Source: Nereocystis luetkeana (lineage: Eukaryota > Sar > Phaeophyceae > Laminariales > Laminariaceae). From it: a DNA stretch of 64,000 bases. The first letter of the stretch is position 1. Each line of letters starts with the position of its first letter. This document shows positions 1,541 to 63,746 of this stretch, piece by piece. Below the pieces are notes generated by a model, which saw nothing but the letters and a program-made list of their open reading frames with translations, had not been told where the DNA came from and ran no database searches. Where the stretch lies: positions 1,765,501-1,829,500 of the forward strand of contig JARUPZ010000006.1 in NCBI GenBank assembly GCA_031213475.1. Direction: 5' to 3'. The position numbers were made by a program, and so were the translations under genes.

Positions 1541-2980
1541 CCTGTGTTCCTCCTTCTTTCTTGGCGGTCCCTAAGCTGGAGTATTGTCTATGTATTATTT
1601 ACCTTCATACGCTCATAACTCCCAGTTCCCAGGTACCAGGGACGCGATGCGTCGTGCGTAGAATCGATAATGGGCAATGGTGCAACGATCTGACAACGAA
1701 CGATAGTAGTCTATACCGACCGGTAGTCTATACTTCGAAGTATACCGGTATCCCGTTCATGCAATGTGGAGCTCAAAACTCCTGTCTCCTGCCTGTACAT
1801 CGAGACCATGTACATATGTATATAATCAAATATGTGATCGATTTTGTACTTGTATTCTAATCCCATGATACCGTACCAGTCAAAGTCAGTACGACCTGTA
1901 CCAGGTATTCGATAGCGATAGTACGTTAGACGATATGCCCGGTAGACGATAGTATAACACCATCATGTTGCGTCTGTTCAGAATCGCTGCGACGTCGGAT
2001 CATGGACAGCTCAACATCTGATCATGCATCATACCCATACCTTTTTTACATTTACCACGTACTAAATACTAAATGAATGTACCTTTTAATAAATACACGA
2101 AGTACATCATTTACCATGAATCCATGCATCGGTTATCGGCAGGGTTTTGGTAACAAAATCATGCTGACATTTAGTGCGTTTCCTTACGATTTACGAAATG
2201 TCCTCGAATATTATGTACCCGCTTAATGAAAAAAAAATCAGACCTGCAGCAAGGATGAGGGACACCGTACCCGTGCATTTCTCGCAGTCTGTCACCTTAA
2301 ACAGGCAACCCGTCAACGTCGTCAAAGCTGAATAGTTTAGGATGGATGCTGCACGGTGTGAGCAGGAATCAGGAGCTGCCAATCCCACCCCGCCCGACAG
2401 TGACCGCGCGGATTGAAGACCTGAAGCAGGACGCGGTCGAGATCGAGACCGCCAAGAAGCTTAGGGAAGCCACGCGCGACCTGCTCTAACCGCGGATATT
2501 TGGACGGCCGATGATCGGGCAAGTTTCGAGATGTAAAAACTCGGTAAGTGGAAGCCGCCACTGGATGAAAGTAGAGGTCATTATGTCTCAATTTTCTCGT
2601 TGTCCTCTCCCTCTCCAACGTTGAAGTGCCAGAGTTTAACGACCCCCCCCCCCCCCAACCCCCCCCCTTCCCCCCCCCCCCGGCCCTCTCCCTTTGCTGG
2701 TTCGCACCACCCCCCCTCCTTTGCGCATACTAGACCTCGTAAACATGGCCATCACGGCGCAGTTTCTTCGGCAGGGGGGGTCGGCACACCAATCATGCGA
2801 CCCTCTCGTACAGAAAGTTCTCCGGTTCTCACACTGCTGAAAGGATCGTTGAGCATTTCACTGAAGCCCTCGACGTCGTTCGTCACTGCAGACACTGCCG
2901 TTACGCTTGGCAACCGACACCGCCTCGAGCATCAACAAGGCTGGGACCAAGACTAGCACGGCTGCGCAGCGCACAAGATA
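1541..2980. other. Unassigned region
   Basis: No gene recognised. Holds one TACCAGGTA motif (1899) and a C-rich tract (about 2641-2690). Short open frames here have no family signal. Confidence 0.5.
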
Positions 2981-3415
2981 AGAGTTTGTTCGTTTCACAA
3001 AGGATAGACCGCTGAGCTACTCAGCCAGCAGCGCACAAGATAGAGTCTGTTCGTTTTATCAAGGATAGACCGCTGAGCTACGTACTCAGTCAGAGTAGTA
3101 GCTCAGTGGTCTTATCCTTTATAAAACGAACAAATGAGGTACCTTTGGAACCACGATAAAAGAACACTCGACCAGAGAGTCGAAAGTGGAGTGAACCACT
3201 TGAGTAAAAGAACTCACGACTAGGGAGGGGGACTATAGGAAGGAAAAACCAGGCGCTGATTAGGGGCTTGATCAACCCCAGAGGACGTTATCGGCGGGAG
3301 GCCGTATCGAGCCCAAAGGTACTTCTCTTGTTCGTTTATACAGGATATACCACTGAACTACTTAGTCAGCGCTGACTGAGTAGCTCAGTGGTCTATCCTT
3401 TATAAAACGAACAGA
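2981..3415. repeat. Cluster of inverted tRNA-A-box-like repeats
   Basis: Five copies of a roughly 40-bp unit with TAGCTCAGTGGTCTATCC and TTTATAAAACGAAC. Three (about 2985-3027, 3045-3091, 3330-3372) are minus and two (about 3093-3133, 3373-3413) plus. Neighbours of opposite strand sit head to head, giving large palindromes. Confidence 0.7.
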
Positions 3416-3499
3416 GTTCTCTGTGAAGAAGCCTTGGACGAGCCGTCGGTGAAGAAGACACTGACCAAGAACAAAAATATTTTGCGACTAATGTCCTCG

Positions 3500-4660
3500 G
3501 GTCCACACAGATATTGGACAATATCTATCGATATACAGGGTTGCCAGTATATTGTCGTTAACAACATCTATCGACAGACAGCGTTGCCAGTCGATTGTGA
3601 TTAACAGTGCCTATCGACAGACATTGCTGCTATTACGGGGGGCCACTGTTAACAGGACCAAATATTGTTAGTAAAAATGGTTAAACATATAGTTTTTTAT
3701 GTATACCATAGGTCCTGTTAACTATGGACCCCCGTAATAGTCTATAGTGGTTCACAATGTCCATCGTGAGAGCCAGCGTTGCTAGTCTGTTGTCGTCAAC
3801 AATACCCATTGATACACGCTTTTTCGGGGCTACTCTGTAGCGGCAATGCTCTATTTCCTTCCTACTGCCTAGGGTATATTATGCTCATTTCTACCTCATC
3901 TATCCCAAGGAATCACTATCAATAACACCGAGTACCAACCCCAACAACACAGCCGACAATGCAGCACACTTAATCCCCATGATGCCCGCTGTCTTGATGA
4001 GAGACACAACGTTGCAGCCCTCCTTCACGCTATGCCATGCACCCACATTACTGCTCATCACGATACACCATGCACTCATTCCATGCTGGTGGTGATCACA
4101 CAAGATGAAATTATGGCATGGCTACGGCACAAAATATTGCAGTTCTTAATAAATCTGAGTACATTGTAGGTGTGGAAATAGGCGGGCGATGGTGTCCATC
4201 GATAGACATTGCCCACCGCAAGATATTCTCATCGGTGTCCATCGATAGCAATCACCGGTCACAATATATTAGAAATGTATCTATCGATAGCCATTGCTGG
4301 TCACAATAGATGAATAAAAATAAAAAATAGCTTCAGGAACATATACCAGGTATAACGATAGCCATTGCCGTCACGAAAGATTGTGAAATGCATCTATCGA
4401 TAGCCATTGCCGGCCACAACAGATGATCAAGAAATGTTTTCATCGATAGCCACTACCGTCGACCGCAATAGATTCTGCAAGCTATCCGTCGATAGCCATT
4501 GTCGGTGACATTAGCTTTCAACCTAGGTACTTCAGCACACTCCTGCCAGAACAATATGTTGGGGACGTAACCTATATAATCGATAGACAGCAGTATCGAC
4601 GACAATGGATCGAGAAACGTGCCAATCGATAGACTTTGCCGACGACATTAGAAGACCCGT
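3500..4660. repeat. Degenerate tandem array of a TATCGATAG-containing unit
   Basis: Repeats of a roughly 50-60 bp unit with CTATCGATAGCCATTGCCGG and CACAATAGAT, strongly diverged, interrupted by MITE-A at 3631-3739 and by about 400 bp of unrelated sequence. Confidence 0.7.
3631..3739. mobile_element. MITE-A copy 1
   Basis: Palindromic MITE with TTACGGGGG/CCCCCGTAA termini flanked by TA, here inside the TATCGATAG array. Confidence 0.85.
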
Positions 4661-5178
4661 TGATTGTCTAGGGTGTGGTTTACATACCACGGGCTCCACT
4701 TAAATCTGCAGAGAGTCACTATTAATAGGCTTCGTTTGGTTCGCCACGCCGGGGGCGCCAAGAGTATCTATCTACTCTGGCGCCCCCCCCCCCGTTGGCA
4801 GCTTTAAATATTTTAGACCGTCTTCGCGGAACCGCCTGCTCGGCACGAAATTGTCTTGCCGTACCAAACCTGACACCACACCTTGACGCGGGGTGGGGCA
4901 GAGTGCAGACAACGACCATAGTGCCGTATAGACTGCTGTGACCATAGAAAACAACACGAGAGTACACATCACAACAACTGACTGCTAATAATAGCACGTC
5001 GCATGTATGCATGTATAAATAGAGAGTGGAACCAGCGTACGCATGTGTGCATGTATAAATACGTGTTTTTACGTACGATGTACGGGTATAGAGTTTACAC
5101 GGTAATACAGAACAATTTCAACCGAGAGAGGGCAGACGCATACGGAGAGAAAAAAAAATCACTTACACCTTCTATATT

Positions 5179-5275
5179 GAAACCGGGACTTTTCGACGAC
5201 AGAAACCGGGACTTTTCGGTCGGGAAACCGAAATCGGGACTTTAGGGTCGGAAAACCGAAACCGGAAAACCGATT
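5179..5275. repeat. Short tandem repeat (AAACCGGGACTTTTCGG)
   Basis: Four diverged units of about 26 bp. The surrounding 4680-6318 holds no recognised gene; it is the region downstream of RAD23. Confidence 0.6.
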
Positions 5276-12400: not shown

Positions 12401-15400
12401 CGCCTCCAACACAATATGGAACCCCCCCCCCCCCCCCAAACACATTTCTCACCCCATTTCCATCATAGCCTGCCCTTCCACATCGGGCGGCTCGTTCATT
12501 AACCTCAAGAAATCCCCCGGGTGCTCATTAATCCTCTCCATCAGCTCCTGGTGACGACGGTGAGAGTAAGCGCAACAGCGACAACAACAGGGCACGAGAC
12601 AAAAAAACAAACAAGAATAAACAGCAAGGTCACGGGACAAACGAAAATAAAAAAATAAAAAAATAAAAAAATAAAATAAAATACGGAGCGACACGTCGCG
12701 TTTTTTTGATATTATTATTTGATCAGAAATGAAATGTAACCATTTTTTTTTTCCCCCCAAGTCTTGTTTCACTTGATTGTATTTATTTAGCATACCCCGC
12801 CCCTGACCCCCCCCCCGCCCGCCTGGGACTGAAAAAAAATGGCGGAGTATCGAAAAAAAAAAGAATCGTCTAGCCTTGGCAAGAGTTCGTAAGAGTAAAT
12901 AAGAAGAGCGAAGGTACGAACAATACGAAGTGCTATTAATAGAGGGTCGTTCGTAGTTATTTTTTCCCCCAGAATTTTCCAATTTTTGTGAAATTATTTC
13001 TATATTTGGTTAGTGTAAATGAACTTCCGAATACGTAAAATTTGACAGAGGGCAAAATGGCGGGAAAGTATGTTTTGTTTGATACCATGGTAGAAAACGG
13101 GGCATAGTTAATAGGACCAAATATTGTTCGTAAAAATAGTAAAACATAGAGATTTTTGTGTGTACCATAGGTCCTGTTTAATGTGGTCCCCCGTAATAGA
13201 CTACAGCACTATGGGGCAAGCCCGACCACGGCTGTGCATGCTTACCCTGGTCACTCTCCATTGCTCACCCGTGTTGTTGGAATATTACGGGGGACCACAG
13301 TAAACAGGACCAAATACTGTTGGAAAAAATAAATAGGTTTTTGTGTGTACCGTAGGTCCTATTTACTACGGACCCCCGTAATACAGTAGCGGTTTCTTGC
13401 CTCTCCAGAGCTTCGGCGCGAGAGACGGCAAGCGTTTCTCTTTCAAGAGGAACCGTGAACACTAACGCCTCCACGACAACAGAGGGGAAACGTGGATACC
13501 ATGACCTACATCCCTCAGTGAACGAGCCACGGCCATTAATCATACCCAATAAACGTTTCGGCCAGAAAAATCACAAAAAGGCGACTCCTATCATACCAAG
13601 CGTCCGCTTTTTTTTTCCATGACATTTATTAGTGCGAGGACAAGGCTAAAAAATAGCGAAAAAAAAAAAAACGGTTTACTGTGAAGAACCCACACAGCGG
13701 GCTACGTAACCGAACCCTGTCTCGCAACAAAAAGAGAAGGCGTGGACCGCACGTGGAGGGCAGGGGGGAGGAGCACCTGCAACGTCACCAGGAGAATAAG
13801 TATTAACAGTGCAAGCAAACCAAATGGGATCAGAGGGGACGGAAAAACAAAAACAAAAACCCGGCAAAACGGAAAAACGGAAAATAAAAAACGCAAGGAT
13901 TATGGATATAAGAAGGGTAGCCAGTGCCCTCTCGCCCATTCTACCCTCTCAAAACACGTTGCTTCGTCTCACCGGGCTTTGGGCTCCCAGCTGCTGCAGA
14001 ACTTGCGGCAACATCGCCGGGTTGTCCCTCACCAGGCCTCGAAGCTGGAAGGGCCATCCGACGGGTTTTTATCCATACCACGATAGGTCGGTAATACCCA
14101 TACGTCGGGTATACCAGATATGCCCATACGCCGGGATATCCATCCGACGGGTATATCCATACGCCGGGATATCCATCCGACGGGTATATCCATCCGACGG
14201 GTACATCCATCCCACGGGTACATCCATCCGACGGGTATATCCATCCGACGGGTATATCCAGACGTCGGGCACATCCATTCGACGGGGATACCCACCCGAC
14301 AGGTTGAGTAGCAGTGTAGCACGCGGGGCGGTGAATGTCGCGACGGTGGCACGGCGGGTTATAGGCAGACACCCAGCTAGACCCAGGCTCAAGGGAAGAA
14401 TAAAAACGCTACCTCTTCTTTTATGCCCGGGACACTTTACTTGGCGCCAAACAAGAGAAACTACCATAGGCACTTAGATGAAGATGGCGGTGTGTACAGA
14501 CTCGGGCAAAGAGGCGTCGTACCAGGTAAAGCTCTTCGAACTCACACCACAGTAACGCTAACGACCGACCAACAAGACACGACATCGACCAGTAAGTGGC
14601 GCTAACGACCAGCAAGTGGAGCTAACGACCAACGAGCAACTCTAACGGACATCAAGCAACGTTAACGATCAGCAAAGTTGCGCGAACGGTCAGCAAGCGA
14701 CGTTAACGACCCCGATTTTTTTCCCTCTGTTGACTTTTCTGCTTTAAGGAAAAGTTACGTAATTTTCCTGTTTTTTCTGTTTCTCTGAAAAAAAAAAAAA
14801 AAAAACGAGGAAAATCGGGGGGGGGGCGGGGGGGGAATCGACCATAACTGCCCTTTCATTTTAATAGTAGGCTGCATGTAGCGCACGGTATTTTGTACCG
14901 GCGTTTTTTAGTAGGCGTCGTGTATGTACCGACACCAAAGCAGGTCTCCTATGACACTCAGGCTGTGCGCCGTGTGATGCCCGCTCAGACTCTTGAGCAC
15001 ATATAAACGGGGATTAAATCACCGCCAAAAGGGTATGTTGTACCGGTGCCAGGTATACACATCAGATACTAGGTGTACTACATATTCACCAGGTGGTCTT
15101 TGACGCCGGCATGATTCTTAGAAGGCAAGAGTGTCATGGCACTCCACCGATCCACACACCAGGCATGCTACATAAGGGACCGTCGTTTGACCCCATCGAC
15201 TGCCACCACGTCCTATACACCAAAAGCTAGTTATAGTAAGGCAAAAGGAGGCCTCCACGCGACCAAAAAAAAAGGCAGGTCTCCTATGCATATCATGGTA
15301 TTTCTATAGAAAACGTAGTACAGTATGGCAAAAGCAGGCCCTTGGCGTGACCACAAAAAGAAAAAGGGTTTCTATGGTATTATGGCGTATTTGTACCCCT

Positions 15401-18400
15401 CACCTCGTCGAACTGAGGGTGAAACCTCATGAAGTTCAGCGGGTTGCCCCCCCCTTCCACACCCAACCGCAAGGAAACGTCGTCCTCGCCTTCCTCATCA
15501 CCACCGTCTGCCCGATCATACCATCCCCCGTCCCCCCCCCACGGGAACCGCCGCCGCGCCGTTGCCGCCATCAAACGTAACGCGGAGGCAACAAGGGTAA
15601 CGTTTTTGAGGTATTATTTTTCAGGTCGAGTTGAGCTCGAACGCAAAAAACGATCACGAAGAAGATGAAATAGAATGGAAGGAAGCACGGGATGAGTGTG
15701 TGTTGCATGACGATCACGGATCTGAAGAGGGTTTCACACGTACAACTCACACGCGATACCCATCCACTAACACTATTACGGGGGACCATAGTTAATATTA
15801 CGGGGGATCCTAGTTAACAGGACCTATGGTGTACATAAAAACCTATATATTTAACCATTTTTACTAACAATATTTGGTCCTGTTAACTATGCCCCCCCGT
15901 AATAGGACCTGCGGTTTACATAAATATATATATATATATATTTAACCCTTTCTGCTATTAATAACAGCATTTCGTCCTATTAACTATGGTCCCCCGTAAG
16001 AGTGATTAAATATACTATGTAACATACGAGGAGGGTATAGCAACCAGAGTCCGCCATGGAACCAAAAAGATCATCCCCTTGTGTTCACAAACCATTTTTG
16101 GCTCTGATTGCCATGAAAAAACACAAAAATACATCCATCACACTTAGTACTACGGGGGACCATAGATAACAGGACCTACGATGAACACAAAACCCTACAT
16201 GTTTCGCTATTTTTTCCAACAACATTTGGTCCTATTAACTATGGTCCCCCGTAATAGGATTTATAGATACGTACATGTAAAAAAAGAATAACCCGCTTTC
16301 CCGGGACAGCACGTTGGATGTTGACTTTAATAAACTGTTCTTTTCCCAGCAACGCACACAAGCTGACGACGGTTACAGACATCCTGCTGCGCATAGAAAG
16401 AAAGCCCTGCCAGTATCTTACGTAGTGCACATACGAGCGACAGCTAAATACACCACCGAACAATAACGCCAATGCCTATAAATGAAGCACAACAGAACAG
16501 CAGTACGACTCGGGCCCACTAACCTGTTTAGTACTGCAGTCCCGATTTGGGGACAAATCATTCTAATTCCAAGTGGTTTGCCCCCAAACGGGACTGCACT
16601 ACAAAAAGGGCTGAAAAAAACACTCCACAGGTCTACCCCTCGGGCACCTGAGGCGTTAGATACTATTACGGGGGACCATAGTTAACCGGACCTATGGTAT
16701 ACATAAAAACCTGTATGTTTAACCATTTTCACTAACATTATTTGGTCCTGTTAACTATGGTACCCCGTAATAGTATAAAGGGGGACCATGGTAAAATAGG
16801 ACCTACGGTACACACAAAGACCTACCAGTATATATTTCACTTTTTTTACTATTAACATTAACCCCTTTAGAACCGCAGTCCCGTTTTGGGGACAAACTAC
16901 TTGAAATTTGACTGGTTTGTCCCCACATATGGGACTGCGGTTCTAAAAGGGTCAACAACAGTATTCGGTCCTATGTACTATTAATATTACGGGGGACCAT
17001 AGTTAATAGGACCAAATATTGTTGGTAAAAATGGATAAATATATGGGTTTTTATGTATACCATGGGTCCTATTATACCTGGTAGGACCAAATATTGTTAG
17101 TAAAAATGGATAAATATATAGGTTTTTACGTATACCATGGGTCCTATTAACTATGGTCCCCCGTAATATGGCCCCCCGTAAAACTGTAACAGTTACTATT
17201 ACTAGGCCGAACTTCCCGGCTAGTGATTAGTATACTTGGATCACGGCTTGGGCGGATCATTTACGGCTCATCTACAAATCATTCCCACTTGATGATCTAG
17301 ATCTTTGAAGGCGGACAGATAATCTGCTCCCGATCTTCCATGATCTACAGTGGCTCATGTCGTCCGATGGGACTCGCGCAACCTGCATGACTTGATTTTG
17401 TACGTGTTTCCTTGGTTTAGATCTGCCCTACAAGGCAGACCCTGCACAATCCGCCACAACGGCAGGTGAATAACTAAATCATCTATATGATCTGTAGATA
17501 GATAGATCATGATCTGCCCGATGTGTGGACTTAGTTGCACGGCGAAAATAAGCCAACTAACTGGCATGTTCATAACTTCATCAAACAACAACCCCCACCA
17601 CAAACTACAAATCGAGCCTCAAACGCGCCAAGCCAGACACAAAACATGGCAGCAGACAGAACTCTCTCCGCAAATTACAAAGCACGCAACAAAAGCTAGA
17701 GTATGTAGAATACCTACCGTGCCACTCTTCTCCCTAGTATTGAAATGTTAGGAACGGTTGTACACTATTACGGGGGGCCATAGTTAACAGGACCAAATAT
17801 TGTTAGTAAAAATGGTTAAACATATAGGTTTTTATGTATACCATAGTTAATAGGACCAAATGTTGTTAGTAAAAATGGTTAAATATATAGGTTTTTATGT
17901 ATATCATAGGTCCTGTTAACTATGGTCCCCCGTAATAGTATCTAGTATAGACGTTGTTTATATTCAGAGTATAAACGTTTATATTCAGGGACACAGCGGT
18001 ATGAACTACAGTACACCATTATCCAGAGTAGTTTGGTCCCTAGTATTGAAATGTTAGGAACGTTTGTACACTAATATCGAGTATAAACGCTGTTTATATT
18101 TAGGGGCAGAGCGATAGGAACTACACCAGTACCCAGAGTAGTCGGCGACTTACAGTCAGCCCAAGTCACTGCGGCCATTTCCTAGGAGATAGATATTACG
18201 GGGGACCATAGTTAATAGGACCAAATATCGTTAGTAAAATTGTTTAAATATATAGGGTTTTATGTATACCATAGGTCCTATTAACTATGGTCCCCCGTAA
18301 TAGTAGACACAGCCGGCGAAACAGGAAGGGGATAAGATTAGCGATCAAATTCTATGTAATGTATACGAGGTGTATTAGGCCACTTCATACGCAGTCGGAA

Positions 18401-29144: not shown

Positions 29145-29421
29145 GATGCACTCACTTCGGTCGTGCGTACTTCAGGCACACTGTTGCACTCTGCTCTGCA
29201 GCACTCCTGCTGGCTCCTGGGGCTCCATTTTACGCGGGGAGATTCCTCCATAAAATACATTATAAACAAGCCTTCGTGAAAATGGAAACCCCCGATCAAG
29301 AAACAAGAAACACTCGACACTCGACTCCGCACTCCACAGCAGCGTCTACCAGGTAGTAGGCGAACACTCAACCAGGTCGCCCCGTAGTACACGCTACGGC
29401 CGTGAAGATCGCTGCGAACAC
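29145..29421. promoter_or_regulatory. Shared intergenic region between divergent RAD23 and PDI-like genes
   Basis: About 277 bp separate the two start codons and no repeat family listed here lies in it. Both 5' UTRs and both promoters must fit here or overlap, so a bidirectional promoter is the simplest reading. No TATA box or named element can be pointed to with confidence. Confidence 0.5.
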
Positions 29422-46700: not shown

Positions 46701-49700
46701 GCCAACTTCAACAGCTCGCGACTTTGCATCCAACCCTTTGCATCGTAGAGCGTACTTCGTACTTTGTATGATACCTGGTAATAAATGTACGAAAAAAGAT
46801 GGCGCTGCGCCGAGCCTTCCCCCCCCCCCCCCCCCTTCGTTTTTTTTGTTTGTCCAGAACGTATTCCGGGCTTTTTATCTTGAATTTAGTGTGGGAGGGG
46901 CTATCTCGCTCAGTTTTGACTGCTTTTTTATTCTGACTCGAGTTCTGAGGAGACGATTTTCTCGACTTTTTTTCGATTCTTTCAAAAAACTAACTTCAAG
47001 TTAGTGTGGGATGTCTGTCTCGGATTCTAGTGTGAGATGAGCCGGACTGGGTATGACCTTCGAAAAAACGAAAAAAAAAGAAAAAAAAAAAGGTTCCGCA
47101 AGTAATCGAAGAAGGACGGACGCCCGGGAGGTTCTCCGAGAGGTGGAGTTAGGCAGGCGTGTTCCGGATGGGAACTCTGAGAGCGCAGCAAGGGCTTTCA
47201 AATCAAGCGTGGCCAGGACAAATCACTTGCCGAGGTAAACGTAATAAAGTCTCCATATGTCCGAAAACCTATCAAGTATACCACACGTACCACTACTGGT
47301 CAAAGCCTCGGGCCCGTTCACCCACAAAAATCATGGAGCCATCCACGTTTCGCCCCTCCTGTAACACAAGGACAGGTGGACCTATTGTACGTATAATACC
47401 TTGCAGCCAGTGACGTCGAGGCTGACCAGGGCTCTGAGGCCGACGAGAGCCTCGATCCCTTCCAGAGTGATCATGTCGTCGTGCACTAGGGACAGAGAAG
47501 TCAGCGAGACCTGCGTCGAAACAAGAACACAAATCAACACGAACGCCTGATTGCCATTCCATCCCCGCCACGAGGACAGAGCGCCCGTACGTGGTGGTCT
47601 AATCGAACATACAACGCTTCTTTTTTTTTTCTCCTGTCAACGATGGTTACAAGCTGGAAAATTAAAAAAACAAGTGGTACTCCGAAGTGTAAACGTATTG
47701 ACATATCCAAAAGGAACTGCTAGCTGTCTGCTCGTATTCGGTACGATCCCGCTATGAGGGTGAGCGGCTGAAAAACCTCCAGCTGCTGTATGTACGTACA
47801 TAGCTCCCCTTTGACAAAAAGCGGCGGCTAATGTTCCTGAATTTCAATAGTAAAACATAGTAATAAAATACTGGGAGAAGCACGGGGGGGCGGGGGGGGG
47901 GGGGGGGGGGGGACCCGCTCCGCGCCCGTCCCTAGCCCCCCGCACCGTCCTCCCACTCACGCCCCCCACCCTTCCACCCACGCTCGAGCCCCCCCTGCCG
48001 CCACCTCCCTCTACCCCCACCTCCACCCCCCCCCCACCCCCCCCCAAACCCCAACCCTCCTCTCCCCCCCCCCCCCCCCTGCCCCCTTCCCCCCCCCCCC
48101 CCCAACCCGCCTACCTCACCTTACGCCCAAGCTCGTGGAGCAAGGCGTTCGTCGTCCTGGGGTTCCTGTCGAGGGACAGGGATGCCACGGGGCAGCCGCG
48201 GAACGAGGCAAGCATGTGGGGCGTGAGCACCCCAAGGTCGGCGAGCCGCTGCAGGATGCGGCCCGCGGTGGCGCCGTCGAGGCCCCCGTAAGAGGGCTGG
48301 TAGCCGCCTTCCCTCATCCTGCGGCAGATGTCTTCTATTAGAATATCCTGCTCGGGGCGCGGTAGGGGGGGAAGGGGAGGAGGGGGGGGGGTAGGGGGTG
48401 TAAAATACTCAGTATCAAGCATGGCCGTGGTCGTACGGCCATGGACCCTAGCATCCCTACAATGGCGGGGCGGAGCGCGTCGGGTGTTCAACGACCGGGC
48501 AGGCATTGCTTGCAAACCAAGCGCGAAGAGCCGTGAGGTGTTGGGCGAGTCGCATGAAGGGTGAGCTTCATCCTACTAGGAACCGCTTGTGAGGCGGACT
48601 TTCTTGCGCATGGATGACAGCGGAGCGCGCGGGGGGCCAGGGGGGGTGTACTCGATAGGAGAGATGTACTCGATCTCATGCATGGCCGTAGTCGGATGAC
48701 CATAGACCCTCGCATCCCTACAATGCCGGGACGGAGCATGTCGGGTTTTCACCGACCAGGCAGCCATTGCTTGCACCAAGCGCGAAGCACCGTGAGGTGT
48801 CCGGCGAGTCGCATGAAGGGTGAGCTGCATCCTACTAAAACCCGCTTTTGAGGCGGACTTGCATATGGACGACAGCTTCAATGAGTTGATTTAATTTCCG
48901 GTGTAGGCATTTCCAGAGACAGCAAGGGGAGTACTATGTAACTGCCTCTTGGGTGCCTTACCTTGAACACTACCTGGTACGTGATACGATCATTCCCAAT
49001 TGTGCGGAGTAAAGGTTCTTTACCTCGCACAAATGATCAAACTCGACAACCAGCTGTGGGCGACCGCCAAAAAAAAAAAAACACAAAAAAAAACGGTACC
49101 CTGGTTGTCTAGCTCACGTAGTGAGCGGCATGTTTTACAGTGTCGTTGCCAACCGACGCCAACCCAACCTATAAAAAATAGGGGGGGGGGGGGGAGGTAC
49201 TCATTTGTTGCTTGCCCTATTATCGTCATTTGATCATCGACCGTGCCTCCCAGTCTCGACACATAGCACGGATTCGGATCCCTAAGAGAGACACCTGCAA
49301 CAGATTGGGCGCTCATCGCGTTGATTCCAGAGGGAGCGGTAACAACACTTCGTTCACGAATCGGGCAGATCGTCTACAGACCATTCCTACTTCCTTGATG
49401 ATCTAGATCTTCAAAGGGAAGACTATCCGTATGATCTGTAAATTCTAGCTCATGCTGCCGGATGGGAGCTGTATAAGCTGCATGACCTCTATTTACGGGG
49501 GGGCATAGCAAATAGGACAAAAAAATGTTACTAAAAATAGTGAAATATATAGGTTCTTGACAGTACCGTAGGTCCTATTTACTATGGTCCCGTGTAACAG
49601 GACATGTTTCCTGGGTCGGATGGATCTGTACCATACAGATCCTGCACAACCTCTCGCAACGGCAGCTTATGATCTAGATCATCCAGATCATCTACAGTTG

Positions 49701-52700: not shown

Positions 52701-55700
52701 GCGATACAACTCCCTCCTATCTCCCCCGTTCGGTGTATAACCCCCCCCCCGCCCCGCCTCTCACCCTGCGGTACAACTCCTCCCCCCTACCCCCCCCCCT
52801 CTTTCCCACCGGGAAAAACGCCATCAATGAGCGGAATGGAATATCAATACGCAATTACCTACCTGAACTGCACCATTAGCCTTCCCCTCGGGCAAAGCCC
52901 GACGCCCTCCACAGTGACCTCCCCGAGCTCCGCGGCCGCCAAGACACGCCCCGGGGGTGGGAAGGGGAACCGCAGCTCCAACTCCTCGCCTTGCACTTTT
53001 CCTGTCGTTGACGTGGTGGTGGTGGCGGTGATGGTGTTGGTGATGGTGTTGGTGTTGTGATTATTTTTGGTGTTGCGGCGGTGGTGATGGTGTTGGTGAT
53101 GGTGTTGGTGTTGTGATTATTTTTGATGTTGCGGCGGTGGTGATGGTGATGGTGTTGGTGTTGCGATTGTTTTTGATGTTGCGGCGGTGGTGATGGTGTT
53201 GGTGTTGGTAGTGATGATGGTGTTGGTAGTGTGTTCGGCGTTATCACTGTTTTTTGCCTCACGACCCCATTTATTTTTATTGTCGCGGTGGTGGTGATGG
53301 TGTTGGTTTCGGTGTTGGTGGTGTTGGTATTACGGGGGACCATAGTTAACAGGGCCTATGGTATACATAAAAACCTATACATTTAACCATTTCCACTAAC
53401 AATATTTGGTCCTACCAGGTATTAACTATGGTCCCCCGTAATAGTGTGTTTGGCGTTATCGTTGGTTTTTGCCTCACGCACCCATTTTTTTTCATCAAGT
53501 ATATATCAAAAGTACGACGATGCTTGGCAGACCAGCTGCCAAGTGAAACATACCGGCATGTCACGCACCCACCGTAAGCCAAAATGGAACGAACCATGCA
53601 CCACACAGCCCGCAACTAATAAACCATGTATCCTATCGGGAACACCACATATCACAACCTCAACACATCACCACTACAATAGCCCATAAACCACACCAGG
53701 TATCCCATACCAGGTACCTGCTATACCATACACCATACCTGGTACCAGGTATACCGTGGGTACCACGCCATGAACCACATTCCATGTACCACGTGCCATT
53801 TATCTCATGGCCTTATTCTATACGGAAAACCGTATTCCGTGCCGTGTGGAACACTGGTACACCATCGCGCGGGCATGCCATCTTCCCGATACCACACTGG
53901 ACACACCACACCAAATTCCTGGTACCATACCGGTGACTCATCTCACGGTATGGTAGGAGTTCCACATTTGGGCCCAGGCTTTCCTGACCCGTCAACATAC
54001 AGCACAACCAGTAGTGTCCGTGCCAATTCTTCAATCCTATATACCAGGTAGATAGATACTTCGTACAAGTTTATGGTTGCAAAAAATCCCCACAGATATA
54101 CGACATTCAGACATAGGGAAATGCACGATTTTTCGGGGGGGTTTATCGTGGGTACTGACTTCTATGCCTCATGCTCCCCCGGAAAAAAATGAATTAAAAA
54201 AAGTTGACTGGGCTCTCTCACCCGCGCTGGGTTCGTTGGACTGCAGCCACGTCACCACCTCCAGCAGCGTAGCCGCGGCCGGGAAGGAGCTGGTGACCGA
54301 AGTACCGTCAGGAAGACGCATCGCCACGATAGCCTGGGCGACCAGACGAGAGCACGGGACGCCGTTAAACCACGCACATGTACGCCCCCGAGCGTTTCTT
54401 TGTGAGCATACCAGGACGGGTAGTTTTTCTGAGACCACCATAAAGTACACCGCAGAGTGTGTATCGATGTTATGGGGGGGAAAGCGCATAGATGCTACAG
54501 TAGGACCAAAAATAATACGCGAGGGTATACGGTGTGTTTCGAAAATCACGTGTTACTATTTTCGGTTTTACATTATTTTTACTCCCCAGGCAGGGCAATG
54601 TTCCACGGACGAGATTCTAAAACACAATTCTCCACGCCTCGGGCAGCCATATACAGATAATCTACAGATCATGTGCAGATCATTTGAATGGTCTAAATCA
54701 TCCAACAAGGGGGAGCTTGATCTGTATTATCTGCGTGATCTATAGATCATGTTACCGAGAGGGACCCGTGTAATCTGAACGATCTGTACTATACAGCTCC
54801 TGCACCTCTCACAACGGCAGGTGAGGAGGAACTAGATCATCTATCTGTAGACAGATCAGATAGATCATGCTCTGTCAGAGGTCTGCAATCCTCCTCCCCC
54901 TCTCCGTTGATAGTTGACGCGTCGCCACCATAAAAGCGCACGCAGGCGACGCCACGAAAACACTTAGCAGGTCGTTACAGGTACTGTTCTGTCCGGAACT
55001 GTAAGGAACGTTTGGGAATAAACTTCAACATTGACGTCCAAACGGTCCTGATATTTACGGACAGATTCATGTTTGTTTCGTTTCTCGACGACACAAGAAA
55101 CGGTCAAAATCTAAAATAAGATAGTACGGTAACCGCCCAACTGGTAAACGGTACCTCGAGCCGGGGCTACTAATGCCTCCCCCCCGGCGCCCTCCCCCGG
55201 CCATTCGCACCTCTGCTTGACCTTCTGCTCCCTCTGCTCCTGCGGGGCTAGAGCTGGCAGTTCCCCCCGCCACGCTTCCACTGCCGCCGCCGCCGCCACT
55301 TGCGTCGCCCAGAGGTCTAGCGTTGCTTTTTCGTTGCTTCGCATCGTCGCGCTGCTCCTTCCATATTGCCAGCTCCTGAGGTAGGAGGAATAAAACCGGT
55401 ATCATGATGGTACACGAAGCATGCCGGTAGCGAGAGCGGTAATGGACGGTGGCGTGAACCGAGAGCGGTAACAGGGAATGGCGACGGGGATGGCATTGGA
55501 ATTGGAAACGGTAGCGATAAACAGTAACGGTAATGACCGCCGTAACAGTCACGGTATATAAAATGGAAATGAAGGTACGAAGCAGTACATAGCAACGGTA
55601 ACGGAAATGGGGGCGGTAACGGTAGCGGTCATGGTAACAGTAGCGGTAATGGAACCGTAGTAGTAGCGGTAATGGAACCGTAGTAGTAGCGGTAATGGAA

Positions 55701-58398
55701 CGGTAATAGTAGTGGGGGCGGTAATGATAGTGGTCATGATAACAGTAGCGGTAATGGAACCGTAATAGTAGCGGATGCGGTAATGGAACGGAAATAATAT
55801 CGGTATTGGCAACGGTAACGGTGATGGGGGCGGTAATGGTAGCGGTAATGGCAACGGTTGCGGTAATGGAGCCGTAATAGTGGCGGTAATGGTAGCGGTT
55901 GCGGTAATGGAACGGAAATAATATCGGTATTGGCAACGGTAACGGAAATGGGGGCGGTAACGGGAGCGGTAATGGTAACGGGAGCGGTAATGGTAACGGG
56001 AGCGGTAATGGCACCGTAATAGTAGCGGTAATGGCACCGTAATAGTAGCGGTAATAGCGGTTGCGGTAATGGAACGGTAATAGTATCGGTATAGGTAACG
56101 GTAACGGAAATGGGGGCGGTAACGGTAGTGGTAGTGGAACGGTAATAGTATCGGTATTGACAACGGTAACGGTACTGGGGGCGGTAATGGTAGCGGTAAC
56201 GGTAATGGTTGCCGTAATGGAACCGTAATAGTAGCGGTAATGGTAGCGGTTGCGGTACTGGAACGGTGATATTACCGATATTGGCAATGGTAACGGAAAT
56301 GGGGGCGGTAATGGTAGTGGTAATGGTAACGGTTGCCGTATGGGAACCGTAATAGCGGTAATTGCAACGGTAACGGTAATGGGGGCGGTAACGGTAATGC
56401 TAACGAAAATGGTAACGGTAACGTGAGGGAGATAATAGTAGCGGTAACTGCAACGGTAACGGTAATGGGGGCGGTAACGGTAGCGGTAATGTTGACGAAA
56501 ATGGTAACGGTAACGTGAGCGGCAGATTGACGGAAACGTGGAGATTGACCGCCGCTCGAGTGAAAGAGCTTGCCATGTGGTGTGGTGTGTTGTGTTGTGT
56601 ATTATCCCTTCGTCCATCCCCCCTCCTCCTCCTCCTTTTCCATCTTTCCTTGTCCCCTATCCCCTGCCCGTGCGCTCGACACACCTGTTGGCGCCTGCGC
56701 TTAGCATCCCCCCTCAGCTGCTTCTTCTCCTTGGCTTCCTGCTCCCGTTGCTTTGCGAACACGCGTTGTCTTTCTTCCGCTTCGGTCGCTCGCCTGCCAA
56801 TGTGTACATGTGTACAGTCAGTAGTATTATAGCACAGGGGTAGGATGTCGTCGTAAAAGCAGTAGGATAATGTCGTACAGCAGCAGAATATCGTACCAGA
56901 TAGTAAACAGTAGGATATTGTGGTAAATCAGTACGGTATTGTAGTACCGACAGTAGGATAATGTGGCAAAAGAGTTCAATATTGTGGCACAATAACAGTA
57001 GGGTAAGGGGTGGTGTAGTGCAACACAAGTGTAGCCTACTGTTGTACCAACAGTACAGGCAGTGGCGGTGTTCACATGGCAGGGGTATTGTAGTACCTGG
57101 TATATAATACCTCAGTAGTATACCTGGCACCTCGTCTACACCTGGTATCAGGTAATACGCAAGGTAACACGCACGGTAACACACCCCCTTGGACGAATTT
57201 CGAAGCAGATTTTCTCGACGACGAGGAGCGTAAACGCCTACATACAACGTCTATAGAAACATCTCGACGAGACCTGTTCAACGTCACCATTTTCGATGTG
57301 TGTGCCTCCCATGTTTTTAGGAGAAAAGTGACTCTGAAAATCGTCCCAGGGGGTGTGGTATCTTATCACCCCCTGTGATAATATCATATTTACATACGGT
57401 ACGTCGCACGACCAACGCGCGTCACTCCTTCAAACGAAAAAAAACGAAACAAAAAATCCCGTCAGCCACAGCCGCCACCATCCCCGCCACCCCTATAGCG
57501 AAAGTACATTGGCACACGCTCGTTTCCCATCAAACGAAACGTAACGTGAAACAAAGCCCGTTTCAAACGAAGCGGAACAAACAGCACACGCTCGTTTCAC
57601 ATCAAACGAAACGTAACGTAAAACAAGACCGCTGCACACAAAGCGGAACACGCAGCACACGCCCGTTTCACATCAAACGAAACGTAACGTAAATCAAGAC
57701 CGTTTAACACGAAGCGGAACAAGCGGCACACGCCCGTTTCACATGAAACGAAACGTAACGTAAAACAAGACCGTTTCACACGTAGCGGAACAAAAACAAG
57801 CACACGCCCGTTTTACGCGTCCACGCGAAACGAACAAAAAACATAGAGCGCACCAGGCATCGAGCAGATATGTACCAATAAGTCTATATATACTGTAGAC
57901 CACACAAGCAACGCAAGCAGGGAGACGAAACTAGAAGCCAAGATACCGATATACTCACAGGGACGGAACGCTCGGGCCTGCGGGAGGCAACGGCGGCACT
58001 GATTCCGAAAAACCACCGCCCCCACTCCCACTCCCCCCCCCGCCGCCAACCCTCCCCCCTGATACAGAGGCCGAACTAGCTCCAGCTGTCTCCGATACCC
58101 TGCCACCACCACTTCCATCACCACCACCACCACCACCACCGCCGCCACCACCACCACCACCACCACCACCACCACCACCACCACCACCAGTTGCAGGAGT
58201 CGTATGCGCGGGAGGCGTTATGTTGAGCCTGAGAGCGGCACCGGCGGCGTTGGCGTCGCCGAGGCCCGTGTGGGCAGAAAGAGGCGGTATTTGGGCGGGG
58301 AGAGGGGGCGGCTCTGCTCCGTCCCAGCTGAGGATCATGGCCGCCGCCCGGTCCACGTTCCCATTCGAGGAGGCTAGGGCGACTTCCGCGGCGTGTTT
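43424..58398 (-). CDS. UBA - coiled coil - UBX - Gly/acidic linker - LRR protein (N-terminus not found, C-terminus uncertain)
   Basis: Visible exons: 57959-58398, 56685-56793, 55211-55375, 54222-54333, 52863-53001, 50029-51058, 48120-48347, 47400-47510, 45166-45240, then two LRR exons about 44018-44246 and 43444-43795. The first nine sum to 2409 nt (803 codons) with every phase agreeing. UBA-UBX proteins bind ubiquitin and the AAA ATPase p97/Cdc48; RNI-type LRRs bind proteins. The UBX is whole (about 80 residues) across exons 4-5 and joins the Gly-rich exon in phase 2 without a stop. The first UBA helix lies in an upstream exon that was not found in the repeat-rich 58.4-63.7 kb. The alternative is two adjacent genes, split between exons 5 and 6 or 6 and 7. 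No UBX-LRR protein is known to me. Confidence 0.7.
44018..44246 (-). CDS. UBA-UBX-LRR gene: LRR exon (3' edge unresolved)
   Basis: VADLGILSLSRGAPSLVHLD, LADCSGVTDAGVAHLSSL, then LESLRLDGLPELSDDGLDAL: cysteine-containing LRRs. The frame runs on into an Ala/Gly-rich stretch, and several GT sites could end the exon. Confidence 0.8.
44251..44525. repeat. Tandem duplication upstream of LRR exon 44018-44246
   Basis: Two units of about 145 bp with GGATGGCGTTCATGCG-x-ATG, GTGTCAGGGATTATTC and a G-rich tail; the first unit includes the exon acceptor. Confidence 0.8.
45166..45240 (-). CDS. UBA-UBX-LRR gene: LRR exon
   Basis: 25 codons, ATNGWLKVLAKLPALETLVM then RGCTK, one LRR unit. Acceptor TTTGCAG, donor AAG|GTAAGA, phase 0. 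Confidence 0.85.
45385..45620 (-). repeat. R1 followed by R2
   Basis: R1 part 45385-45540 and R2 part 45545-45615 with C runs at the junctions. Confidence 0.7.
45985..46290. repeat. GATC-rich repeat
   Basis: GATAGCACAGATCATCTG, GATCATGCAGATAAAG and repeated GATCTGTAGATGATCTG. Confidence 0.6.
46300..47390. other. Unassigned LRR-gene intron sequence
   Basis: No repeat family with clear ends and no exon recognised; one TACCTGGTA at 46772 and a C tract near 46820. Confidence 0.4.
47400..47510 (-). CDS. UBA-UBX-LRR gene: LRR exon
   Basis: VSLTSLSLVHDDMITLEGIE, ALVGLRALVSLDVTGCK: one and a half LRRs. Exon edges fall at the C-x-K/V position of the repeat, phase 0. Confidence 0.85.
48120..48347 (-). 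CDS. UBA-UBX-LRR gene: pre-LRR cap exon
   Basis: 76 codons: DILIEDICRRMREGGYQPSY, ATAGRILQRLADLGVLTPHM, then FRGCPVASLSLDRNPRTTN. It reads like the helical cap and first repeat of an RNI-type LRR protein. Phase 0 at both ends. Confidence 0.8.
48395..49195 (+). repeat. R1 repeat: partial copy, then near full-length copy
   Basis: 48395-48625 is partial; 48640-49195 aligns to 6599-7137 end to end and again finishes at a G run. One TACCTGGTA lies inside (48971). Confidence 0.75.
49192..49330 (+). repeat. R2 repeat
   Basis: GTACTCATTTGTTGCTTGCC to GATTGGGCGCTCAT, joined to R1 by a G run. Confidence 0.7.
49365..49720. repeat. GATC-rich repeat interrupted by MITE-A
   Basis: The same blocks as 17270-17540; a MITE-A copy is inserted at 49490-49599. 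Confidence 0.65.
49490..49599. mobile_element. MITE-A copy 19
   Basis: Ends TATTTACGGGGGGGC and GTCCCGTGTAACA; diverged. Confidence 0.75.
50029..51058 (-). CDS. UBA-UBX-LRR gene: 343-codon Gly-rich and acidic exon
   Basis: Open for 1030 nt with GSAGIKQGKGGMPSAENRG at the start, Arg/Gly (RGG-like) runs, an acidic block, NPYQMWDAMDGGEEAAEEEE, NPMWLPNVGGPP and SEDRATAVRLQRLARLSGGG at the end. The donor CTGCAG|GTGAGA is phase 0. Non-Gly islands such as NPYQMWDAM argue for real coding. It may be disordered. Confidence 0.7.
51110..51375. repeat. G-rich tract with GGGGTGGGGTG repeats
   Basis: Acceptor-side intron sequence of the Gly-rich exon; pyrimidine-rich on the coding strand. Confidence 0.65.
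51449..51515. mobile_element. 95-bp hairpin element, decayed copy 5
   Basis: ACTCATTTAGGACCGCAGTC recognisable, second arm eroded. Confidence 0.5.
51908..52016. mobile_element. MITE-A copy 20
   Basis: Both ends clear. Confidence 0.85.
52863..53001 (-). CDS. UBA-UBX-LRR gene: second half of UBX domain
   Basis: GEELELRFPFPPPGRVLAAA, ELGEVTVEGVGLCPRGRLMV then Q: strands 3-5 of UBX ending on the usual L-x-V. The p97-contact FPR loop reads FPFPPPGR here. The phase 1 acceptor matches exon 4. Confidence 0.85.
53008..53475. repeat. GTT/GGT-rich VNTR split by MITE-A
   Basis: Units of about 60 bp with GGTGATGGTGTTGGT and GTGATTATTTTTG-TGTTGC; the array resumes after the MITE (GTGTGTTTGGCGTTATC against GTGTGTTCGGCGTTATC). 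Confidence 0.8.
53328..53443. mobile_element. MITE-A copy 21, with a 7-bp TA-CCAGG insertion
   Basis: GGTCC-TACCAGGTA-TTAACTATGG where other copies read GGTCCTATTAACTATGG. Confidence 0.85.
54222..54333 (-). CDS. UBA-UBX-LRR gene: first half of UBX domain
   Basis: AIVAMRLPDGTSVTSSFPAA then ATLLEVVTWLQSNEPSA: the RLPDG turn, the FP position and helix 1 of UBX. Phase 0 in, phase 1 out at G|GTGAGA. Confidence 0.85.
54645..54900. repeat. GATC-rich repeat
   Basis: CAGATCATGTGCAGATCATT to CAGATAGATCATGCTCTGTC. Confidence 0.6.
55211..55375 (-). CDS. UBA-UBX-LRR gene: linker exon
   Basis: ELAIWKEQRDDAKQRKSNAR continues the charged helix, then a Gly/Ser/Ala linker. The donor GAG|GTGCGA is weak and was chosen because it keeps phase 0, so the 3' edge may differ. 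Confidence 0.65.
55430..56530. repeat. 1.1-kb hexamer-based minisatellite (GGTAAC/GGTAAT/GGTAGC)
   Basis: Intron array between the coiled-coil and linker exons, with a higher-order period near 117-120 bp (blocks such as GGAACGGAAATAATATCGG recur). The 6-bp base keeps one minus-strand frame open for about 370 codons; this is not a protein. Confidence 0.9.
56685..56793 (-). CDS. UBA-UBX-LRR gene: charged coiled-coil exon
   Basis: RATEAEERQRVFAKQREQEA, KEKKQLRGDAKRRRQQ; this is the Glu/Lys/Arg-rich helix typical of UBXN1-like proteins between UBA and UBX. Phase 2 in, phase 0 out. Confidence 0.8.
57515..57835. repeat. 70-bp tandem repeat
   Basis: Four and a half units of CACACGCCCGTTTCACATCA, AACGAAACGTAACGTAAAAC, then AGACCGTTTCACACGAAGCG. 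Confidence 0.9.
57959..58398 (-). CDS. UBA-UBX-LRR gene: UBA end and poly-Gly linker exon
   Basis: Starts KHAAEVALASSNGNVDRAAA then MILSWDG, the second and third helices of a UBA domain, followed by a Pro-rich part and a long poly-Gly run encoded by a GGT/GGC tract (about 58100-58195). The GTGAGTA donor leaves phase 2. The MGF loop must be in an earlier exon. Confidence 0.8.
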
Positions 58399-60004: not shown

Positions 60005-60659
60005 TACTACAATACGAAACAGGAAAGCCGATCTAGGCCAGACGTCTTCCCTGAGAATCGGTGCGTTCTACAACACATTCGGTACAGCGACTCCCGAATT
60101 TCTCACGTTCCTATGAAATCCCGGCCTCCCTTTCGTAGTGCTCATTTTCTTTATCCTATGTCCTGTATAGACCGAACATACGAACCATCGATAACCGATC
60201 CACTTCTCCACCGATTCGGATTCGGGTACGTGCTGCAACAGTATACCTTGTACATTGGCTAACGACGAATATCGAACGATCCTCTACAAGCAGATCGATG
60301 TCACTCTGCCCGTGTAAATAGAAGAACCACTTACACATTAATATGAGAACCAACTGTTCCTTATATTTCCGACCAAAGTGTTATGTACGACATACAGGTT
60401 TGATACCACATGGCAGCTTTCGTTTCAGTGTCAACACGGGGATCGGGGATGGATGCCAGGGGGCGTTGGGCGAAAAAAGACGTTCGGTACGACTTACCGA
60501 AAGTTCAGTATTCTGATACATACCTGGTATATCGTAATATTCGGTACGATATCCAACACGAAGACTGGCCCGTTCTACGAGGCTGCTTGTTATTCTCGCA
60601 TTGATTAATCGCCATAATCTTAGTCCGTAGCCACGAGACTTTGATGAGTATATACTGGT

Positions 60660-60800: not shown

Positions 60801-60824
60801 TATATTACACAGTTACTTTTTGTT

Positions 60825-60967: not shown

Positions 60968-61004
60968 ATCCCCTTCCTCCTTGCACCTTTCACATTATCC
61001 TACT

Positions 61005-62200: not shown

Positions 62201-62224
62201 TATACAGCTAGCAGCATGGTGCGT

Positions 62225-62790
62225 GGAGGCATGGAAGATGCTCGGTGGTTATGATACTGTCTTGAATGAAGTTGAAAGCCCGGTACAAACCTGGGTTCAG
62301 GCACTGGGATCGTGTTTGTAGTACTTGGAAGGCGCATCTTAAGTGGAAAACCAGGGGTTTCCAGAGACGCACGAGCTTGGTCTCAGTCTCCACCGTGCAC
62401 GGGTGGCATGGCGATGGCTTTCGTTGACGATTTCTTCCCGCCCCTCAAGGCTAGGTATTCATTTAATTTGTTTTCAAGTGCCGGTTTCATTGCCTTGCCG
62501 TTCAGAGGAGGTGTGGGAGTGGGTTTTGGGGAGCCGCATCTTTGACTCATGTTCTAGTTCGTGGGATCGGGGTTTCCATGAATTTCGCATAATTCGGCAG
62601 ATTATACGGCTCATCAGAGTGGGCTAGTGTTACGATACTGCCTTGAATGAGGTTGAAAGCCCGGTAAGTACCTGGGTCCAGGCGCTGGGATCGTGTTTGT
62701 AGTACTTGGAAGGCGTATCTTCTTAGATGAAAAGTTTTCCAGAGACGCACGAGCATGGTCTTAGTCTCCACTGTGCACGAAAGGAATTGC
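62225..62790. repeat. Direct repeat, two units of about 165 bp
   Basis: 62245-62405 and 62628-62790 share GTTGAAAGCCCGGTA, GGATCGTGTTTGTAGTACTT and CCAGAGACGCACGAGC. The spacer resembles 9850-9985 (GAGTGG, GCCGCATCTT, GTGGGCTAGTGTTA). Confidence 0.75.
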
Positions 62791-62903
62791 GCTGCTCTTC
62801 TTCTTTCTCTAAGCGAACAACAAAGCAAACTACACACGCGTGTACCAACGTACCGACTTGATAGGCAGACCTGTCCAGGGATACAAGGTGTCGCCTGCCG
62901 CTC

Positions 62904-63000
62904 TTAACCCTTTTAGAACCGCAGTCCCGTTCTGGGGACAAACCAGTCAAATTTCAAGTAGTTTTGTCCCCAAACGGGACCGCGGTTCTAAAGGGGTTAA
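62904..63000. mobile_element. 95-bp hairpin element, copy 6
   Basis: Best copy: TTAACCCTTTTAGAACCGCA to GCGGTTCTAAAGGGGTTAA. Confidence 0.85.
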
Positions 63001-63189
63001 CACCAATGATATGGAGAGCAAAAATATACCGTATATTTATGTCGTCAAATTCCTAGCTTACCATACCAGGCAATAAAGTACTTTTTAGCCCATTTTTCGA
63101 GAATTTGCCTCAAATCCTACATTCGGCGCTTTTGGGGGCAGGGAAGTAACACAAGCACATTGTATTTTCTGTACAGTACAGACCGGCGT

Positions 63190-63460
63190 CCCCGGGCTTG
63201 GTAGGTGGCCCGCGCGCCCACTAAGATCAAGTTCGTGGGTTCGAGTCTCACCGAGTGCATGCTCGTAGGGACTTTTTCTTGCATAAAGAAATTGATCAGC
63301 GGAAAGCGCGAGAGCGTGAGTTAGCTACATTCGATGAAAACCGACGAGCAGTGGGAATGCTGAACCGTATGCGCGACAAAAAATAAAGGCACGTACCGGG
63401 GGGGAGAAGGGACGACACCCGTGACCACGGCTTCTCCAGAAGAAGATCGCCGAGGGCGAA
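63190..63460 (+). repeat. tRNA-derived SINE, second family
   Basis: The head contains GGCTTGGTAGGTGG and a B box GGGTTCGAGTC with a paired T-arm (GTGGG/CTCAC). The body shares AAAGGCACGTACCG with the 28594 SINE. No acceptor stem pairing. Confidence 0.6.
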
Positions 63461-63746
63461 ACCTTATACCAGGTATTATAATACGAGTTTAGGGTGGAAA
63501 AGAAAAGTAATCACGAGAAAGAAAAAAGACTAACCAGGTACCACAGGGTACGTACCAATACGCAAGAGCGCCTGACGGGTCGACTATGCTTGTTTCATTG
63601 GCTTCGTCTTCAGTCTTTGTATCGCCCTTTCTCTCCCTCTCTTTCGGCGGAGCCCCTAACTCATAGTTTTGCCCAAGAGGCTACCACTGCCGCTGCACCG
63701 GGGCAATCCAAGCCGAAGCAGCACCTGCCTGCACCCAACTGAGACG

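Follow-up and report, generated by a model that had tools for sequence, protein, structure and literature searches.

TACCWGGTA words across the genome of Nereocystis luetkeana as probable repair scars left by a cut-and-paste transposon that targets TA

Introduction

Excision footprints of cut-and-paste DNA transposons, in which a short insertion marks the former position of the element, are normally studied locus by locus. Footprints of the Sleeping Beauty/Tc1 type take the form TAC[A/T]GTA. Elements of the Tc1/mariner group cut 2-3 nucleotides (nt) inside their ends (PMC2170065), and the footprints of Sleeping Beauty are described as identical to its 3' overhangs (PMC7827188). Here, a single scar type, the 9-mer TACCWGGTA (W being A or T; TACCAGGTA or TACCTGGTA on the forward strand), was found to span the whole genome of the brown alga Nereocystis luetkeana. 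The analysis started from a stretch of 64,000 nt, hereafter the window, which occupies C6:1765501-1829500 (contig JARUPZ010000006.1) in an assembly of 465 Mb and 1,987 contigs (GCA_031213475.1).

The word is present in great excess, is polymorphic as an exact TA or TA plus 7 bp, shows a symmetric target preference, is repeated in tandem and is accompanied by minor products. Judged from the sequence, we consider it likely that these words are scars of repair after the excision of a cut-and-paste transposon that targets TA and has CCAGG ends and an overhang of about 5 nt. The former presence of the transposon, its CCAGG ends, the overhang and the end-joining repair are what we infer, and so is the excision step, since no element with such termini was found. 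That cut-and-paste elements leave short insertions behind is known, and the CCWGG core, the scale and the missing source are new as far as could be searched.

With the Sleeping Beauty/Tc1 footprints the scars share a duplicated TA, a core that would consist of element end bases, a single mismatch in the centre that repair turns into either A or T, and the logic of end joining. They differ in having a 5-bp CCWGG core in place of the 3-bp CWG, and in numbering about 182,000 in a genome where the element was not found. The TA target is also that of Mos1 and other mariner footprints, and the ends of Mos1 begin CCAGG. Mos1 overhangs, however, are 3 nt long (PMC4505599), whereas TACCATA is without excess here, and no mariner transposase was detected at a meaningful E-value. 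The footprints of plant Stowaway/Mariner miniature inverted-repeat transposable elements (MITEs) likewise consist (PMC4561436) of a short insertion of terminal-inverted-repeat bases with a retained target-site duplication; those are made by known elements, unlike the roughly 153 scars examined here, beside which none was seen. Last, the internal eliminated sequences of ciliates resemble the present case in their TA boundaries, many thousands of sites and few visible transposases (PMC9942856), but the scars here are 7 bp long, and nuclear dimorphism was neither seen nor looked for.

Abundance of the scar

Counts were made on a working sample of 314 kb, comprising the window and 250 kb from elsewhere in the genome (on 264 kb where so stated), and the control for the motif was the same pattern read backwards. 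The window contains 36 copies of TACCWGGTA between 1899 and 63475 (Table 1) against an expectation of 0.56, a number reached by none of 100 dinucleotide-preserving shuffles of the window. An earlier note on this DNA had given the same range and an expectation of about 0.5, both of which stand, and a count of 35, which does not. The 36 sites form 32 runs, of which 29 are single, two have two units (22917 and 53736) and one has three (30585). Over the 465 Mb of the genome, the excess that the note had proposed as a check amounts to 182,395 copies against 1,744 of the reversed pattern, a mean spacing of about one per 2.5 kb; if the TA density of the sample applies genome-wide, about 0.7% of all TAs are scarred. 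The density is uneven, with 44 scars in 50 kb of C2 versus 1 in 50 kb of C3, the latter being a stretch rich in long inverted repeats.

Among the sixteen word classes of the form TA-abWb'a'-TA, CCWGG was unmatched (153 versus 1 reversed), the runners-up being GGWCC (17 versus 1), which occurs within a MITE family referred to below as MITE-A, TAWTA (16 versus 12) and TTWAA (9 versus 1). The central base on the + strand was T in 90 and A in 65 scars of the sample, so both are common, and the scars lie in unrelated contexts as well as in MITE copies. Beside 155 intact scars, 149 single-base variants were counted, against an expectation of 68 and a count of 43 for the reversed pattern; they were in excess over expectation at all nine positions and only slightly so at the fourth. 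Scar decay thus averages about 6% per base. The similarity of empty homologues, which reaches 99%, suggests that part of the scars are recent.

Insertion at TA

Each scar was collapsed to TA and homologues of the resulting sequence were sought elsewhere in the sample. At strict settings, a homologue with exactly TA and no gap was found for 14 of the 31 scars with a spanning homologue, versus 1 of 221 other TA-N5-TA words in a control set that left out words touching a scar (Fisher p 1e-13). Looser settings, with 141 runs tested, returned an exact-TA homologue for 16 of 42 scars and for 27 of 288 control words drawn from a random 900 of 1,097, at least 9 of the 27 adjoining a scar by eye; the homologues of the 26 scars missed had gaps of another kind, carried bases other than TA or shared the scar. 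The empty homologue of the scar at C3 1490 is 99% identical, and at C1a 38770 a two-unit array is wholly absent from a homologue of 97.5% identity. The presence or absence of the scar at its target is exact, TA standing in the empty homologue and flanking the 5-bp core left and right in the filled one.

The same was observed within repeats. For the MITE-A scar at 37075, 37 alignments gave exact TA in 23, another dinucleotide in 5, a gap in 8 and the same scar in 1; for that at 53413, the 29 alignments gave exact TA in 13, another dinucleotide in 12 and a gap in 4, and the copy that carries it (53328-53443) measures 116 bp versus 109 bp for the copy at 18194-18302. The repeat scar at 48971 was aligned nine times (exact TA 7, filled 1, gap 1), and the TA of this scar is filled with CCTGG in two copies of the repeat family, including L023 2187, and with CCAGG in a third (C1a 16290). 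Both the exact 7-bp insertions in MITE-A that the earlier note had claimed and the presence/absence polymorphism it had proposed to look for are thus borne out, and on these alignments TACCWGGTA is to be read as an insertion, not as a motif made by substitution. In a further MITE-A copy (16985-17168; 184 bp, or 109 + 75), an inner segment of 68 bp is tandemly duplicated and TACCTGG sits exactly between its two copies; two breaks at two TAs, joined via the same overhangs, would yield such a junction, which as a single case is suggestive.

Target preference and tandem arrays

A logo of 282 half-sites around the collapsed TA, set against a background of 34,002, showed W at -7 (0.83 versus 0.53), A at -6 (0.48 versus 0.25) and a depletion of T at -1 (0.07 versus 0.21). 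The symmetric form WANNNNRTAYNNNNTW surrounds 9 of 141 scars versus 204 of 17,011 TAs (odds ratio 5.6). A palindromic preference centred on TA is how the target of a transposase looks. Most runs consist of a single unit (108 of 120 in 264 kb), and tandem pairs number 15,917 genome-wide against 2 in the control, about six times the roughly 2,640 pairs predicted by random re-use of TAs.

Excision model and minor products

In the proposed model, a cut-and-paste DNA transposon with ends reading 5'-CCAGG would insert at TA and duplicate it. On excision, the transposase would cleave the non-transferred strand within the element, probably 5 nt from its end, and each flank would retain TA-CCAGG as a 3' overhang. 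These overhangs would pair as C-G, C-G, A.A, G-C and G-C, and the single central A.A mismatch, resolved either way, would give TA-CCAGG-TA or TA-CCTGG-TA with a net gain of 7 bp, while a slip of 1 nt in the pairing would give CCAGGG/CCCTGG. As each scar would add two TAs with the preferred surroundings, later rounds would build the tandem 7-bp units.

Since CCAGG and CCTGG are complements, the dominant product is uninformative as to strand; the slip form is informative. An overhang CCAGG slipping by 1 nt yields CCAGGG or CCCTGG, and an overhang CCTGG yields CCTGGG or CCCAGG. In the sample, TACCAGGGTA occurs 8 times versus once for TACCTGGGTA (reversed controls 1 and 1), and the 6-bp CCWGGG class as a whole numbers 13,000 versus 771 genome-wide. 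CCAGGG was found in eight of the nine genome rows with letters shown, two of which are also in the sample, and in 14 of the 16 distinct slip-form sites when sample and genome rows are taken together; the one TACCAGGGTA site with a homologue has exact TA there. Because the minor 6-bp form is CCAGGG and not CCTGGG, the chromosome end left by the cut probably read TA-CCAGG. The scar length and the slip form fit a cut about 5 nt inside the element, a 3-nt cut with a mismatch being the less likely alternative. The TA-CCAG-TA class is weakly over its control (27 versus 16); the window copy reported earlier at about 16792 has this form and lies at 16823-16830 instead.

A particular TA of MITE-A is followed in 57 places (control 8) by CCWGG, one base of any kind and a base other than A, with CCAGGGT in 21, CCTGGGT in 1, CCAGGAC in 18, CCTGGAC in 1 and others in 16. 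The 21 to 1 ratio of CCAGGGT to CCTGGGT agrees with the slip form seen elsewhere. The 18 places with CCAGGAC after this hot TA, ATAGTTAATA, may represent either repair that used a GG of the flanking DNA or a variant of MITE-A.

If the model is true, one scar type provides a count of past excisions that is independent of surviving copies and a natural record, over some 10^5 trials, of the ways in which a single defined overhang is repaired in a eukaryote (full annealing, slip or trimming), and it would point towards a transposase with an unusually deep cut. Whether a DNA transposon can keep moving over long periods and yet not accumulate also becomes testable from the number of scars per element. 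We advance only tentatively, and rather doubt, the further proposal of a TA-targeting transposase lineage with a 5-nt stagger and near-complete cut-and-leave behaviour, in which insertions in the hundreds of thousands would each have been undone and about 182,000 excisions would be recorded with almost no copies of the mover; removal would then be the work of a very active excisase or of programmed elimination.

Search for a source element

Elements were sought as TACCNGG...CCNGGTA pairs within 6 kb, as TA-flanked inverted repeats of 14-16 bp, through extensions after TACCWGG and as repeat boundaries at TACC[AT]. These searches returned MITE-A and a 95-bp MITE (TA-ACCCCTTTAGAACC), along with satellites, tandem scars, inverted duplications and isolated pairs judged to be chance. 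The best inverted pair, at 29727-30164, with perfect 19-bp arms and a span of 438 bp, had itself as its sole match in the genome. Allowing at most one mismatch, TACCTGGTACACACCAG gave 374 dispersed matches; TACCTGGTACACAGCAG gave 97, also dispersed and few close together, and an inward pair from that search spanning 13 kb of C4 had only 17 bp in common. The interval C1b 29714-30259, with CCAGCAGCGAGG ends, was rejected as an element with that end because its C3 copy continues past the left boundary. Large insertions in self-alignments were mostly MITE-A.

Searches for transposases were also undertaken. A Transposase_1 profile found no match, its control being likewise silent and hence uninformative. 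The DDE_1 profile gave 28 pogo-like matches, of which 11, in 10 loci, were inspected in sequence. Two are elements with visible ends: L028 2051-4662, with TA-flanked terminal repeats CAGTGGGGGGCCC (terminal inverted repeat CAGTGGGGGG), and L034 408-2385, with TA-flanked terminal repeats CAGTACCGGCCCGCTAG (terminal inverted repeat CAGTACCGG), which directly adjoins a TACCAGG scar. In the remaining eight loci, either no terminal repeats were found or an inverted duplication was present; in L031 (C34:4443801-4449800), two DDE_1 matches lie about 3 kb apart in a large inverted duplication. A Mos1 transposase query returned four matches (C1:3120067-3120357, C1:12540274-12540561, C20:962109-962399 and C14:10945991-10946278) with E-values of 0.40-0.82; each lies in an open frame (409-489 amino acids) and covers the query segment 83-179. 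The E-values alone are at chance level, and the common segment makes the matches worth reading. Within the window, 10 of the 28 open reading frames of at least 150 amino acids were scanned without a Pfam match, and the tRNA and Rfam scans gave none. An EsV-1-7 motif had no match in 363 kb. A scan of IMG/VR for the tandem form returned nine contigs with two sites each (one with three) and no sign of a related genome.

The element with CCAGG or CCTGG termini that the earlier note had proposed to look for was thus seen neither in the 314 kb nor through the transposase searches, and its statement that traces far outnumber visible copies holds in the part examined. Given that none lies beside some 153 scars, the rule of three puts intact copies at probably less than 2% of the scar number, and rarity, extinction, strong divergence or great length must characterize the source family. 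A report of such a scar was not found in the literature searched, most subscription papers lying outside its reach: no transposon title stood among the matches listed for TACCTGGTA, TACCAGGTA combined with brown algae and genome gave no match, and the word footprint is absent from the main text of the Ectocarpus transposon survey.

Alternative explanations

Several results weigh against a transposon with CCAGG ends and a 5-nt overhang. No TA-flanked family with CCWGG ends was seen in the 314 kb (264 kb for one of the searches), where an element would escape if it exceeded about 6 kb or if its inverted repeats were poor; the DDE_3 profile had no match, and the two pogo-like DDE_1 elements with visible ends start CAG, not CCAGG. 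No bases of an identified element could therefore be matched to the scar. An overhang of about 5 nt exceeds the 2-3 nt of Tc1/mariner elements, a length against which the earlier note had rightly remarked that 5 bp is long, and CCATGG (6 versus 0) suits a 3-nt CCA overhang better. In MITE-A, common descent may account for the 21 CCAGGGT rows, and the 18 to 1 imbalance of CCAGGAC over CCTGGAC is perhaps a mere MITE-A variant; it is not counted as support because CAGGACC is common in MITE-A itself, being already present in 7 of 19 such stretches of the sample. Moreover, of 59 listed tandem pairs readable on the + strand (two three-unit runs counting twice and one pair being a local duplicate), 40 have equal centres (AA 23, TT 17; AT 14, TA 5), against the half predicted under independent repair (p 0.009), so some arrays may be slippage; the tandem pairs of the sample have equal centres in 7 of 14.

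The closest contender, possible if rather unlikely, is a Mos1-like mariner scar, in which a 3-nt CCA overhang places a terminal A opposite A and the gaps are filled to give CC[A/T]GG, joining without overlap giving CCATGG. The CCAGG ends and 3-nt overhang of Mos1, the 6 copies of TACCATGGTA (control 0) beside none of TACCTAGGTA in the 314 kb, and the one segment common to the four weak Mos1 matches speak for it, although those matches are at chance level. No base pairs would hold such ends together, yet a single product dominates, with CCWGG at 153 and no excess of TACCATA (53 versus 66) or TACCGGTA (18 versus 13), and the genome-wide CCWGGG class is not predicted. The very numerous, uniform scars with no visible element would equally suit elements that persist in the germline or another nuclear form and are removed in development, as are the internal eliminated sequences of ciliates, so that the sequenced DNA holds scars only. 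We regard this as improbable: the 6% decay per base resembles that of sequence fixed long ago, contig 1 has a length of 21.9 Mb and TTAGGG-type telomere repeats at its start (C1:1-10000), and excisases of the piggyBac type are described as seamless except for Tetrahymena Tpb2 (PMC9942856).

That the 7-bp unit itself was added, as a micro-insertion or slippage unit, and that no element was ever present, would explain the lack of a visible element and the equal-centre bias of the arrays. It is nonetheless very improbable, as runs are mostly single and stand at places that are a bare TA in the empty homologue, a palindromic target preference like this one typifies transposases, and the W centre and the slip form fit overhang annealing. 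Least credible of all is a selected binding site, whether for a transcription factor, an origin or methylation (such as Dcm-like CCWGG), for which a near-palindromic and very abundant 9-mer might be taken; homologues differ by an exact 7-bp indel at TA and not by substitutions, none of the nine positions lacks an excess of single-base variants over expectation (slight at the fourth), and the word sits in unrelated contexts and MITE copies alike. The excision-footprint reading, with excision itself inferred, is the one supported by the genome-wide excess, the exact-TA polymorphism, the symmetric target and the nested re-use.

Coordinates and other over-represented words

Table 1. Scars and minor forms in the window (positions of the window; strand as assigned)
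Feature	Coordinates	Strand
Scar TACCAGGTA	1899..1907	.
Scar TACCAGGTA	4344..4352	.
6-bp minor form TA-CCATGG-TA	13083..13092	.
Scar TACCAGGTA	14520..14528	.
4-bp form TA-CCAG-TA; exact-TA homologue exists	16823..16830	+
Scar TACCTGGTA at junction of 68-bp tandem duplication, MITE-A copy 16985-17168	17075..17083	.
Scar TACCTGGTA	21562..21570	.
Tandem scar, 2 units (A, A centres)	22917..22932	.
Scar TACCTGGTA	24301..24309	.
Scar TACCTGGTA	24604..24612	.
Scar TACCTGGTA	25563..25571	.
Scar TACCTGGTA	25678..25686	.
Scar TACCTGGTA	26761..26769	.
Scar TACCTGGTA	26798..26806	.
Scar TACCAGGTA	27592..27600	.
Scar TACCAGGTA	29347..29355	.
Scar TACCTGGTA in left arm (29727-29745) of perfect 19-bp inverted repeat	29727..29735	.
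Scar TACCTGGTA	30126..30134	.
Scar TACCAGGTA in right arm (30146-30164) of 19-bp inverted repeat starting 29727	30156..30164	.
Scar TACCAGGTA	30444..30452	.
Scar TACCTGGTA	30494..30502	.
Tandem scar, 3 units (T, A, T centres)	30585..30607	.
6-bp minor form TA-CCAGGG-TA, read as slip product	35482..35491	+
Scar TACCAGGTA	35753..35761	.
Scar TACCAGGTA	36974..36982	.
Scar TACCTGGTA inside MITE-A copy	37075..37083	.
Scar TACCTGGTA	46772..46780	.
Scar TACCTGGTA in repeat	48971..48979	.
Scar TACCAGGTA inside 116-bp MITE-A copy (109 + 7)	53413..53421	.
Scar TACCAGGTA	53708..53716	.
Tandem scar, 2 units (T, A centres)	53736..53751	.
Scar TACCAGGTA	54042..54050	.
Scar TACCTGGTA	57094..57102	.
Scar TACCTGGTA	60521..60529	.
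Scar TACCAGGTA	63467..63475	.

Two further word classes were found in excess in the 314 kb. The first, TATTAATA, occurs 61 times with diverse flanks versus once in the reversed control (in the window, for example, at 884, 4720, 12934, 16979, 21745, 27959 and 61671). The ends of MITE-A are TTACGGG, reading TA-TTACGGGGG, and TATTAATA would fit a TTAA scar of MITE-A-type elements in which a 3-nt overhang TTA pairs over 2 nt. The second, TACWGTA (88 versus 32), would fit the same scar logic with pogo-like elements whose ends start CAG. Both readings are weaker than that of TACCWGGTA because few exact empty sites were found, at 2 of 13 TATTAATA sites with a homologue and 1 of 17 for TACWGTA.

A family of 95-105-bp MITEs with ends TA-ACCC[CT]TTTAGAACC is represented in the window at 62905-62999, at C2 41632 and 45748, and at L021 773. 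Finally, TACTGCTGTA/TACAGCAGTA is over-represented in 264 kb (27 versus 0 in the control; window positions 24959, 26820, 30436 and 30634), one possibility being a CAG expansion inside a CWG scar.

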